NCBI RefSeq assembly: GCF_002272135.1 | Contig: NZ_NPBF01000021.1 | Span: forward strand, 124,001-188,000 | Reading direction: 5' to 3' | Length of the DNA: 64,000 bases | DNA from: Virgibacillus sp. 7505 | GTDB lineage: Bacteria; Bacillota; Bacilli; Bacillales; Amphibacillaceae | In this document: one piece after another, positions 54,968 to 61,223 of the stretch | How positions within the stretch are numbered: the stretch's first letter is position 1 | Layout of the letters: each line of letters opens with the position of its first letter | Notes under the pieces: model-generated | Seen by the model: only the letters and a program-made list of their open reading frames with translations | What the model was told of the DNA's origin: nothing | The model's database searches: none | Translations under genes and position numbers: made by a program

Positions 54968-55243
54968 ATGTTGACAAAACGGCAAGGAATCGTCGTATGG
55001 TTCCAGCATATGAAAAATATTAAGCAGCTGAAGCGGCATGGACACTTGGTTTTCGTGTCCAAAAAGCTTAAATACGCGATGATATATGTGAACCTGGAGG
55101 AGGCCGAAGAGAAGGAAGCAGCGTTGAATAAACTGCCATTCGTCTCTAAGACGGCGTTATCTTACCGTCCCTTCGTCCGTACCGATTTCGAGAATGCGAA
55201 ACAGGATAAAGCGAAAGAATACGATTATAAGATTGGTATATAA
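54968..55243 (+). CDS. ylbG: UPF0298 protein YlbG
   Basis: A 91-residue protein: RQGIVVWFQHMKNIKQLKRHGHLVFVSKKLKYAMIYVNLEEAEEKEAALNKLPFVSKTALSYRPFVRTDFENAK is the YlbG/DUF2129 pattern, a small alpha/beta protein of unknown function. The ATG at 54968 follows CGAGGAAC. Confidence 0.92.
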   Translation: MLTKRQGIVVWFQHMKNIKQLKRHGHLVFVSKKLKYAMIYVNLEEAEEKEAALNKLPFVSKTALSYRPFVRTDFENAKQDKAKEYDYKIGI

Positions 55244-55280
55244 AAAAAGCCTGCAGGGAAAAGCCCTGCAGGCGCCTTTT
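55243..55280 (+). terminator. Hairpin terminator after ylbG
   Basis: GCCTGCAGGG pairs perfectly with CCCTGCAGGC. The following tail is GCCTTTTG, so termination may be incomplete. Confidence 0.65.
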
Positions 55281-55320
55281 GTTTCCAATGAAAACAAACA
55301 GGCAAAGGGAGAGGAGAAAC

Positions 55321-55394
55321 CGGAGGAAGAGCTTATGGGGAAACGTAAGTCTTCTCCGTGTTCATGAAGCAGCTATTAGCGTGATAGCCGCTTC
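55321..55394 (+). other. Structured leader before rsmD with two hairpins and a 10-codon frame
   Basis: Hairpin 1 (55321-55359) pairs CGGAG-AAGA-CTT with AAG-TCTT-CTCCG apart from two bulged G. Hairpin 2 (55366-55394) pairs GAAGCAGCTAT with ATAGCCGCTTC with one mismatch. Between, an ATG at 55335 follows GGAGG and opens MGKRKSSPCS, whose ribosome site is inside hairpin 1 and whose stop touches hairpin 2. No T-run follows. The gap to rsmD is 214 nt. Confidence 0.4.
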
Positions 55395-58875: not shown

Positions 58876-58912
58876 TAAAAAGGATGCATCTCTCTGATGC
58901 ATCCTTTTTATT
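58876..58912. terminator. Bidirectional terminator
   Basis: AAAAAGGATGCATC pairs with GATGCATCCTTTTT between ylbL and tmcAL. Confidence 0.92.
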
Positions 58913-60098
58913 ATGCGAATATAGGCGGCGATAGCTCTTGTCTGCGCGAAGCTGCCGCTATTTCAGGTGGTAATATACTGTTATAAGCATCCGCTGCTTG
59001 CAATTCTAAATCAGCAACTGGATGCATGCCGTCCTTTAATTGTGTATATAACGGAACGTCAAGCTGCTTTTTCCTAGAAGAAAGAAAGGCCTGTCCATTT
59101 TTGTTCATTCCGAGAATACGGATATAAGGGCATGCTGCCTGTTCAAGATATTCGCGGTTCATATGCTTTTGTGTATTCGATAGCAGGTGCACACAGACGC
59201 GCTGCAGTCTTGTCCATGTATAGCGTTTCGTTTTGATCAGAGAAAGGAACTGCTGGAAATTCAACGCCTGATTGATATATTTCTTGAAACGGTATTCCAA
59301 TCCCTCATCCATCCCATGAATGTGGCGCAGTGTTTCAGCAGGTCGGGTTAGGATGAGATAGCGTAAAAGCGGGAAATAGGCTTCCCAGCTGTGAAGTTCT
59401 TTAGCTTCCATCAATTCAAACGTCTTTTCCGGTACAGCTGCTTTCACTTGTTGTTTTCTCTCTTCCTGCCAAGCAGAACGGATTGATGTGGCACTTGCGA
59501 TCGGGCCGGTAATAGACTGTTCATGATAACCTGCCTGAATACGGCGGATTGTATCGACCTGTATTGGCGAATGAAGGGCCTGGGCTGCCTGAAGATATGC
59601 AAAACCCAAGATATTATTGGGGCTGCTAAGATCGAGTGCGGAATTGATTCCCACTAACTCGTATGCTGCACGATTTGCTTCAGGATAGGATAAGCCATTT
59701 TCCAGCTGCTGTTTTAGAACTGTCTCAAAAGCTGTCCGATTCTTTTGTCGTTCTTTTTGTGCGTGATGGAATGATTCTATAGATCCGTTTTCAGAACCAA
59801 AAACGAGATGATCCACTTTCAGGGCATCAAGGATGGAAACAGCTCCTTTGGCAAACAAATCAGCATGCTGCACTGCAAAAAGGAAGGGCAATTCGACAAC
59901 CAAATCGACACCGGCAGAAAGTGCCGCTTTTGTACGGCTGAACTTATCCATAATGGCCGGTTCACCACGCTGTGTGAAATTCCCGCTCATTACTGCAATC
60001 GTACAATCGCTTTCGGTTAATTTTTGCGCCTGCTGTATATGATAAACATGACCGTTATGCAGAGGGTTATATTCGACGATGAGGCCGCATGCTTTCAT
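58911..60098 (-). CDS. tmcAL: TmcAL (YlbM), tRNA(Met) cytidine acetate ligase
   Basis: A 395-residue nucleotidyltransferase-fold enzyme that makes N4-acetylcytidine at the wobble base of elongator tRNA(Met) from acetate and ATP. N-terminal GLIVEYNPLHNGHVYHI contains the NxxHNGH adenylate motif, with SGNFTQRGEPAIMDKFSRTKAAL after it and VFGSENG and SSPNNILGFAYL further on. GGAAAGGAGTTCCCC precedes the ATG. The 124-bp repeat array starts 39 bp upstream of the gene. Confidence 0.95.
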   Translation of the reverse strand: MKACGLIVEYNPLHNGHVYHIQQAQKLTESDCTIAVMSGNFTQRGEPAIMDKFSRTKAALSAGVDLVVELPFLFAVQHADLFAKGAVSILDALKVDHLVFGSENGSIESFHHAQKERQKNRTAFETVLKQQLENGLSYPEANRAAYELVGINSALDLSSPNNILGFAYLQAAQALHSPIQVDTIRRIQAGYHEQSITGPIASATSIRSAWQEERKQQVKAAVPEKTFELMEAKELHSWEAYFPLLRYLILTRPAETLRHIHGMDEGLEYRFKKYINQALNFQQFLSLIKTKRYTWTRLQRVCVHLLSNTQKHMNREYLEQAACPYIRILGMNKNGQAFLSSRKKQLDVPLYTQLKDGMHPVADLELQAADAYNSILPPEIAAASRRQELSPPIFA

Positions 60099-60136
60099 AG
60101 GGGAACTCCTTTCCTGTATTTTTTAGTCTTTTACTG

Positions 60137-60577
60137 AGAAAGGACACCCAATCCGGGCTCCCTCGCTTATCCTTACTTTTCTAAACGGTGTTCTCCGCTT
60201 TTCTTTGTTGTCTGGCTCTAGAAACCAGAAACTGCGGTATAAGAGATGAATCCCTATGTGGGAAAGGACACCCACGCCGGGCTCCCTCGCTTATCCCTAC
60301 GTTTCTAAACGGTTTCTTCCGCTTTTCTTTGTTGTCTGGCTGCAAAAACCAGGAGCTGCGCTGGAATCGATAAATCCCTACAGGAGAAGGGCGCCTCCTT
60401 CCGGGCTTTCTCGTTTCCTTCTCCGCTCCTAACGGTTTTCTCCGCTTTTCTAGTGTTGTCTAGCTACAGAAACCAGAAACTGCGGTATAAGCGATGAATC
60501 CCTGCGTGGGGAAGGACACCCACTCCGGGCTCCCTCACTTATTCCTTCGTTTCTAAACGGTTTCTTCCGCTTTTCTT
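60137..60577. repeat. Tandem array of 124-bp units, about 3.6 copies
   Basis: The block GGACACCC recurs at 60142, 60266, 60390 (diverged) and 60514, and TGTCTGGCT-like blocks at 60211, 60335 and 60459, exactly 124 bp apart. Units are about 75-90 % alike, the third being most diverged. Each full unit can fold into hairpins. One 5-bp stem with an 8-nt loop is GTGGG/CCCAC in two units and AGGAG/CTCCT in the third, so pairing is kept while sequence changes. No reading frame is conserved. It fills most of the 609-bp gap between tmcAL and ylbN. A similar TGTCTAGCT...CCGCTTTTCT core occurs in dispersed repeats of Bacillaceae, as I recall. Confidence 0.9.
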
Positions 60578-60651
60578 ACGTGTTACAATAGAGATAATGT
60601 TCTTTAGTAAGAATATAGGCTAATTATTGCCTTGGTGTAAAGAAAATATAT

Positions 60652-60679
60652 TGACAAAGCTTCTGTTTTTTTTTACAAT
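60652..60679 (+). promoter_or_regulatory. Sigma-A promoter of ylbN-rpmF
   Basis: TTGACA, 16 bp and TACAAT, 28 bp before the ylbN start and directly after the repeat array. Confidence 0.8.
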
Positions 60680-60707: not shown

Positions 60708-61223
60708 GTGAAAATTCCGGTTCAAAAGCTTAAAGCTAAAGGTCTTGAACCTTTCGAATTTACAGAGCAAGTGGATGTGTCAGACATCCAGGGCAAAAAT
60801 GATATTCGTCGGATTGATCCGGTGAAGGTCAGCGGTCAGGCGACATCGCATGGAAACGATATAACCGTTAAGTTCGCTGTAGATGGCAAGATGATTCTTC
60901 CATGTGCGCGCACGCTGGTGGATGTACCGTATGAATTTCATGTTGAAGCGACTGAACTGTTTACTTTGTCTCCATATGCAAGCGCGGATGACGAGTCAGA
61001 GATTCACCCTGTTGAGGGAGAACTGCTTGACTTGAAACCGTATATAGAGGAAAATATCCTATTGGATGTTCCTTTCCGTGTTTTCTCCGAAGATCCGGAG
61101 GCATTGGATAATGCCACGAAACAAGGAGAAGGCTGGCAGCTTGCCAGTGAGGAAGCACAGCAGGACAAGATCGACCCGAGGCTCGAGAAACTGCAAGCTC
61201 TCTTGAAAAAGGACGACGAATAA
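60708..61223 (+). CDS. ylbN: YlbN/YceD-family protein (DUF177)
   Basis: A 171-residue protein with the DUF177 pattern: an N-terminal beta part (KFAVDGKMILPCARTLVDVPYEFHVEATELF) and the C-terminal EGELLDLKPYIEENILLDVPFRVFSEDPE. In plants and bacteria this family is linked to 23S rRNA accumulation, and it is nearly always followed by rpmF, as here. GTG start with GAGGTGAATTAAC. Confidence 0.93.
   Translation: MKIPVQKLKAKGLEPFEFTEQVDVSDIQGKNDIRRIDPVKVSGQATSHGNDITVKFAVDGKMILPCARTLVDVPYEFHVEATELFTLSPYASADDESEIHPVEGELLDLKPYIEENILLDVPFRVFSEDPEALDNATKQGEGWQLASEEAQQDKIDPRLEKLQALLKKDDE

Follow-up and report, generated by a model that had tools for sequence, protein, structure and literature searches.

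Bacillus subtilis has a 190-bp repeat, and the RU-1 repeats resemble ERIC. The REP/BIME sequences of gamma-proteobacteria, described together with RAYT transposases, are dispersed intergenic hairpins that are often clustered and usually number more than 100 copies per genome; they were proposed to be non-autonomous elements whose palindromes are preserved via complementary changes (PMC2817692). Intergenic stem-loop repeats of Bacillus, including Bcr1, Bhal-1 and Bhal-2, with sizes of 74-167 bp, were tabulated by size and copy number in a study from which 11 cluster groups located in rRNA precursors had been removed beforehand, B. halodurans and B. subtilis contributing one each (PMC2267715). 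Enterobacterial RU-1 elements are 127-bp small mobile sequences found in multiple intergenic regions and likened to MITEs (PMC2759123). Bacillaceae-1 (RF01690) is a structured, dispersed Bacillales family (PMC2864571, PMC4333381).

The repeat described here is of this known kind, bacterial structured intergenic repeats, and is distinct from both REP/BIME and Bacillaceae-1. Like REP/BIME, it is a dispersed intergenic hairpin repeat with complementary changes (PMC2817692). Unlike REP/BIME, it is found in rRNA spacers and in genomes without a Y1 transposase; in place of short palindromes with a GTAG/GTGG head and alternating orientation, its units are ~120 nt long, start with (TA)AGAAAAGCG, and run head to tail in the arrays read. 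Bcr1, Bhal-1 and Bhal-2 belong to other species, and the comparison of the element with them is one by description (PMC2267715). RU-1 is similar in size and also intergenic; it belongs to another phylum and was likened to MITEs, whereas the ends of our element are not inverted copies of each other (PMC2759123). Bacillaceae-1 shares structure, dispersal, host order and presence in rRNA operons with the element, but differs from it in sequence and fold (67 positions). Because of the GUCCU in the apical loop, the unit was suspected to be Bacillaceae-1. A search with the RF01690 model was negative: the family was found in none of nine Terribacillus genomes, and in the genome that holds the window the best score, on contig C27 and away from the array, was 21.1 bits, with the cut-off at 35. 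When all 4227 families of Rfam 15 were searched, none reached its cut-off over a unit, either in the window (E up to 10) or in other genera, with the exception of RF01690, which did so inside two copies of genome G096. A sub-threshold overlap with RF00558 at a unit in L127 scored 24.6 bits against a cut-off of 58.7. A search of the open-licence literature by topics and sequence words recognised no description of the repeat, which is a weak indication that the element is new to the literature. In the T. saccharophilus ZY-1 genome paper, the passages on tandem repeats give a method and a citation.

In the window, i.e. the whole 64,000-nt stretch of DNA that was analysed, the element forms a tandem array between two divergent genes (Table 1). 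From their PF05636/NF010191 and PF02620 (YceD) matches we take these to be tmcAL (ylbM) and ylbN, the neighbours named in an earlier note on this DNA. Three full units and one partial unit follow each other head to tail. With a period of 124, 3.6 copies and 76% matches, the array has the top TRF score (523) among the 19 rows for the window. Its self-identity at lag 124 was 0.70, compared to a mean of 0.26 and a maximum of 0.35 in 2000 shuffles, and was 0.36-0.37 at lags 123 and 125. Most details of the earlier note were found as it had given them: the 124-bp recurrence with GGACACCC at 60142, 60266 and 60514, GTGGG-8-CCCAC at 60258-60275 and 60506-60523, and AGGAG-8-CTCCT of the diverged unit at 60382-60399. 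The TGTCTGGCT block was also there, but it starts at 60209 and not at 60211, where TCTGGCT alone starts. In the diverged unit, AGGAG/CTCCT forms the apical stem and AGGAGC/GCTCCT the second stem. Partial last units recur elsewhere, the sense 3' ends of arrays often stopping after model positions of about 1-40 to 1-80 (e.g. L054, L063, L109), and partial units of other kinds are seen at L026, L059, L111 and L112.

Table 1. Features of the tandem array and its surroundings (window positions; fold energies in kcal/mol)
Feature	Position	Strand	Evidence or remark
Whole tandem array	60138..60577	-	TRF; nhmmer and CM units lie on minus, which is the repeat's sense strand
Unit 1 (sense order), closest to the predicted promoter	60456..60576	-	CM R1 137.6 bits, the unit (G000:C21:184456-184576) being among those used to build CM R1; fold -48.7, z -4.78
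Unit 2, diverged in sequence, same fold	60332..60451	-	CM R1 114.4 bits; fold -43.4, z -2.89
Unit 3	60208..60328	-	CM R1 121.2 bits; fold -42.0, z -3.07
Partial unit 4	60135..60203	-	Model positions 1-69 only; stops before the tmcAL ribosome-binding site
tmcAL (ylbM), presumed name	58911..60098	-	PF05636/NF010191
ylbN, presumed name, YceD family	60708..61223	+	PF02620, "large ribosomal RNA subunit accumulation protein"
Predicted sigma-70-type promoter TTTACA-18-TATATT, reads into the array	60612..60641	-	Consensus match only
Predicted ylbN promoter TTGACA-17-TACAAT	60651..60679	+	

BLAST revealed ten more matches of the array in its own genome, and a covariance-model search of related genomes (CM R1, 101 genomes) found the family dispersed well beyond the tmcAL/ylbN gap. 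It is present in ten of ten Terribacillus genomes and, with these and the window's own genome counted, in at least 62 of the 101 genomes and at least 50 of 86 genera, as determined with strict filters from the best candidates, up to 35 per genome, that were scored. At E <= 0.001, six genomes of one or two contigs had 102, 78, 65, 48, 28 and 18 matches. The array is not private to the tmcAL/ylbN gap: the family of which it is one member is dispersed and extends into rRNA operons.

Terribacillus copies occupy about twelve orthologous intergenic loci, each in two to ten of the ten genomes: ylbM/ylbN, ctc/pth, dacA/serS, a rocA-type gene, an ABC-F gene, era, upp/glyA, fba, mreBH, hemL and others (gene names assigned from family hits). 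Copy number differs across strains and species, with 0 to 6 full units per locus among the fetched matches, to which e.g. the array at G004:C13:1500643 does not belong. The two genomes of the window's species, for example, have 2 versus 4 full units at ctc/pth and 1 versus 4 at era; counts for the window's own genome (G000) may be collapsed, since it is a 578-contig draft. Such arrays could be variable-number loci for strain typing. Evidence of concerted evolution between loci is weak in Terribacillus: units of one locus had a mean identity of 0.758 across genomes, while units of different loci had 0.724 within a genome and 0.718 across genomes; identity between rRNA and dispersed copies was 0.66-0.67. 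Looking post hoc at the genes that flank loci L032-L040 and L106 and the window array, several are translation or ribosome genes (YceD/YlbN, TmcAL, Ctc/L25, Pth, SerS, ABC-F, Era).

The fold was studied on an alignment (A1) of 104 out of 108 non-redundant units (<90% identical) from the 210 full units in fetched loci; G014 copies were excluded during clustering, and the four rows omitted are L023, L108 and one each of L052 and L113. The A1 units fold as one long hairpin of 31 pairs, with 94.0% of cells paired. An AGC/GCU foot is followed by a variable outer stem of 6-7 bp, a bulge on the 5' side, and stems split by small internal loops. Two-sided changes occurred at 24 of the 31 pairs and in 411 cells, compared to 143.6 cells in column-shuffled alignments and 52-123 with partners slid. 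Simulations along a FastTree tree with column-specific frequencies gave a mean of 60 cells and a maximum of 125, and none of 200 attained the observed paired fraction, cells or pairs; this null is crude, having site-independent ad hoc rates and no recombination, though the arm data below suggest recombination. Homologous copies elsewhere covary as well: in 79 copies from other genera (A2), 703 two-sided cells were observed versus 198.5 after shuffling, and 28 pairs with two-sided changes, a number reached by 8 of 500 shuffles, although A2 was aligned to the model and hence leans towards it. The compensatory changes, as expected of a structured RNA under selection, exceed the shuffled null in A1 and A2 and the phylogenetic null in A1.

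The outer ATAAG/CTTAT stem and the apical stem, both proposed earlier, are part of the consensus hairpin and covary. The proposed TCTGG/CCAGA stem can pair in 91.9% of cells, but showed no two-sided change in 104 units and did no better than shuffles, so covariation does not support it. The suggestion that the fold is selected, as opposed to produced by simple slippage, is supported, the 411 cells exceeding the 144 shuffled and 60 simulated; the changes in copy number mean that slippage or unequal exchange is also at work, and the decay of some copies means that not every copy is under strong constraint. Unit boundaries are not random, single dispersed copies and rRNA-spacer copies having those of the array. 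The outer stem comes in many matched arm types. In 92 pairs of neighbouring units, a unit's own arms scored 5.41 of 6, compared to 4.24 and 4.46 with the neighbour's arms; random units scored 4.15. Where the arms mismatch, they resemble chimeras of two arm types, as if arms had been exchanged between units.

A G-U pair is tolerated on RNA and an A-C pair is not, so the ratio of the two tells the strand. In A1, where the cells are not independent, G-U outnumbered A-C by 37:4 at the apical stem and 10:5 at the foot but not along the outer stem (38:52). The middle stems gave ratios of 80:22 (second) and 96:13 (first), of which 39 and 84 cells come from two pairs with U-G as the commonest form; when these were left out, the ratios became 41:14, a single pair supplying 25 of the 41, and 12:12. 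Copies from other genera had a G-U excess in one stem only (17:2). Unit 3 of the window, the sole unit folded both ways, was more stable in sense (-42.0) than in antisense (-36.5). The stability of unit 3, along with the excess of G-U at the tip and in one middle stem, makes the window minus strand the likelier one. These data suggest, short of proof, that the inner hairpin is a sense-strand RNA, while the outer stem appears dominated by arm exchange. Selection of the fold as RNA on the sense strand is supported, albeit indirectly.

rRNA operons were reached via matches 5.3-5.5 kb apart and at contig ends. Twelve Terribacillus 23S-5S spacers, seven from G061 and five from G008, were aligned, having been selected because they matched. 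The element, read as the window minus strand, takes up about the first half of the spacer, and in all 12 it starts 3-5 nt past the modelled 23S 3' end (cmscan and alignment). In other genera, eight genomes have rRNA-operon copies, on the rRNA strand every time: between 23S and 5S in G017, G048, G054, G065 and G066, just upstream of 5S in G043 and G096 (the 23S end lies beyond the stretch), and after 16S in G081. Among 30 5S loci from 30 genomes, six contained the element (G017, G043, G054, G048 and the Terribacillus genomes G003 and G006). A 23S end was seen by pattern at 17 of the 30; five of these had the element and 12 no match, and the spacers without a match include those of G045 and G053, which are rich in dispersed copies. 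Five of seven Terribacillus 5S loci, all beside tRNA genes and one at a contig start, gave no element match. No 23S was found by cmscan in these five stretches either, so they are uninformative on 23S-5S spacers. An origin of the element as half of a 23S processing stalk was also considered and rejected: its duplex with the 16S-23S spacer of L030 had an energy of -50.3 versus a shuffled mean of -49.5, and 80 of 200 shuffles reached an equal or lower value, i.e. no signal of complementarity.

The position of the element relative to genes was counted for 100 arrays of other genera, using heuristic ORFs of at least 80 aa and treating overlaps of up to 5 nt as near. The loci are mostly best-scoring ones from few genomes and are not independent; the rRNA locus L204, which is included, adds one to the 66 and the 54 below and none to the 45. 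Thirty of 45 arrays started within 15 nt of a co-oriented upstream stop codon, ten of them exactly 2 nt past the stop, while at the element's other end a stop lay as near in 1 of 66; for random intergenic points with a co-oriented upstream gene the figure was 170 of 2186 (7.8%). The element, whose consensus start is TAAGAAAAGCG (98 starts), completes the stop codon with its own first bases at some loci, and at two Terribacillus loci the element begins, as judged by eye, just past an apparent intrinsic terminator. Starting at stop codons is unusual as a pattern of insertion or retention. It is not a universal rule, since for 54 of the 99 arrays with an upstream gene that gene is on the other strand. 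In Terribacillus, many arrays run antisense between two co-directional genes; together with these 54, they mean that a sense-strand role at 3' ends cannot cover all copies.

We read the element as a transcribed structured repeat that probably serves in transcript processing and probably spread non-autonomously. We give a probability of roughly 0.5 to the joint reading that it is an unnamed ~120-nt interspersed Bacillales repeat, an RNA hairpin acting in cis in processing or stability, spread non-autonomously. The transcript of the element would fold into one long hairpin, which would act on its own transcript, most likely as a processing or stability element near RNA 3' ends for a double-strand-specific RNase of the RNase III or Mini-III type; the rRNA position, the adjacency to 3' ends and the sense-strand fold point to such a role. 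Copies may multiply within an array via unequal exchange or slippage, and the original spread would have been driven by some mobilising activity. Three subjects that are usually treated apart meet in the element, namely intergenic tandem repeats, dispersed stem-loop families and the 23S-5S spacer, and its covariation renders a large, apparently unannotated RNA-like family directly testable.

A serious rival, which we consider a real though unlikely possibility, is a purely selfish, MITE- or REP-like non-autonomous element, with a hairpin needed only as single-stranded DNA for mobilisation, copies that are neutral to their hosts and rRNA copies that are tolerated passengers. REP sequences are a precedent for non-autonomous elements with palindromes kept (PMC2817692), and the high copy number (up to 102 matches per genome), its fluctuation, and the lack of strand bias in the outer stem (38:52) agree with such a view, as does the decay of copies at some loci. 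At upp/glyA, five of the ten Terribacillus genomes (G000, G001, G006, G007, G008) have full units, and four (G061, G005, G003, G002) have remnants only, as judged by eye. In the tenth, G004 (L229, the same as L114), a remnant is accompanied by a copy turned the opposite way in the gap that holds forward copies in other species, which implies an inversion or a new insertion. Y1 transposase genes are present in 82 of the 101 genomes. A RAYT/Y1 transposase was nevertheless rejected as the current mobiliser: PF01797 is present in G006 and G008 and absent from seven of nine Terribacillus genomes, the window's own included, in which the elements persist all the same. Further points against the selfish reading are that the element's ends, GAAAAGCG... 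and ...GGAGCTAGACA, do not form an inverted repeat, that the tip shows a sense-strand G-U excess (37:4), and that the rRNA-operon copies examined share one orientation. A clean empty site was not found in three comparisons: at an orthologous site of G014 and G082 the element starts at the same place in both species and the inner sequence is different, at L127 synteny is broken, and the third was Terribacillus upp/glyA. At E 1e-5, plasmids gave no match for the window array or the G014 copy, and phages none for the G014 copy. In G007, G005 and G001 (L225, L226, L223), a second GC-rich, dispersed-looking block, GGCGGGCGGAGCCGCTCCGGC..., adjoins the element at upp/glyA.

Structure at the DNA level, i.e. 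a cruciform, protein binding, or correction of a quasi-palindrome by template switching, might yield paired changes without selection on RNA. We think this improbable. The outer stem, with G-U and A-C about equal (38:52) and with arms of matched types whose mismatches resemble chimeras, fits such a mechanism, and so do the terminator-like hairpins that the first ~15 nt of the element and an inverted copy form after some arrays, as seen by eye. The internal loops, on the other hand, separate the stems, so that there is no perfect palindrome; orientation in rRNA operons is fixed; unit 3 folds better in sense; and G-U outnumbers A-C at the tip (37:4) and, though less cleanly, also along the second middle stem (80:22, or 41:14 when its pair with U-G as the commonest form is left out). 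Apparent terminators of this kind, followed by T's, were noticed by eye in the 3' flanks of L029 and L045 (dacA/serS) and of L125.

Also improbable, and speculative, is an RNA-level repeat system of Bacillales in which RNA-linked insertion would put the structured element, in one orientation, directly where transcription units have their 3' ends, be it a stop codon, an intrinsic terminator or the 3' end of 16S or 23S rRNA, and would then serve as a shared signal for 3'-end processing of mRNA and pre-rRNA, with Bacillaceae-1 as a second member of the guild inserting into its bulge.

Both hexamers of the predicted promoter that reads into the array are invariant in the ten genomes aligned at the ylbM/ylbN locus, so the array is predicted to form a ~500-nt leader of the tmcAL mRNA. 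Transcription of the array as a 5' untranslated tmcAL leader has support that is indirect. It is very doubtful that this leader is a tmcAL-specific cis-regulator of attenuator or riboswitch-like type, with expression set by array length. The order of conserved predicted promoter, array and ribosome-binding site would suit such a regulator, and the tmcAL ribosome-binding site GGAAAGGA has its complement in the apical loop GUCCUUU(C). However, the rRNA copies do not keep the apical loop sequence, the same units lie beside unrelated genes at about eleven other loci as well as in rRNA operons, and the locus has 1 to 3 full units across genomes, which argues against a finely tuned leader. A plain minisatellite made by slippage, with chance hairpins, would account for the tandem layout, the exact period of 124 and the variable copy number, but is refuted by the dispersal of the family, by the unit boundaries kept in single dispersed copies and the rRNA-spacer copy, and by covariation beyond the shuffle, slide and tree controls.

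Bacillaceae-1 was found in 62 of the 101 genomes, nine of which have at least 45 copies. In G096 it is nested in two copies of the element at the 5'-side bulge (L281:798-864 and L288:1178-1244); these containing copies were recognised by eye from their ends, CM R1 matching neighbouring copies and not these. Twenty high-scoring Bacillaceae-1 loci of other genomes showed no plain nesting, only single end-like matches. Bacillaceae-1 also lies between 23S and 5S in G024 (L321:1501-1567) and just downstream of 5S in G066 (L311:1501-1567) and G028 (L314:384-450), and in the latter two it is followed, as judged by eye, by 5S-like fragments. The element gives a context to the orphan Bacillaceae-1: one genome has this motif inside the element, and others have it in their rRNA operons. 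Elsewhere in the window, a ylbH leader (RF00516) was found at 55240-55361 and a TPP riboswitch (RF00059) at 1250-1349.
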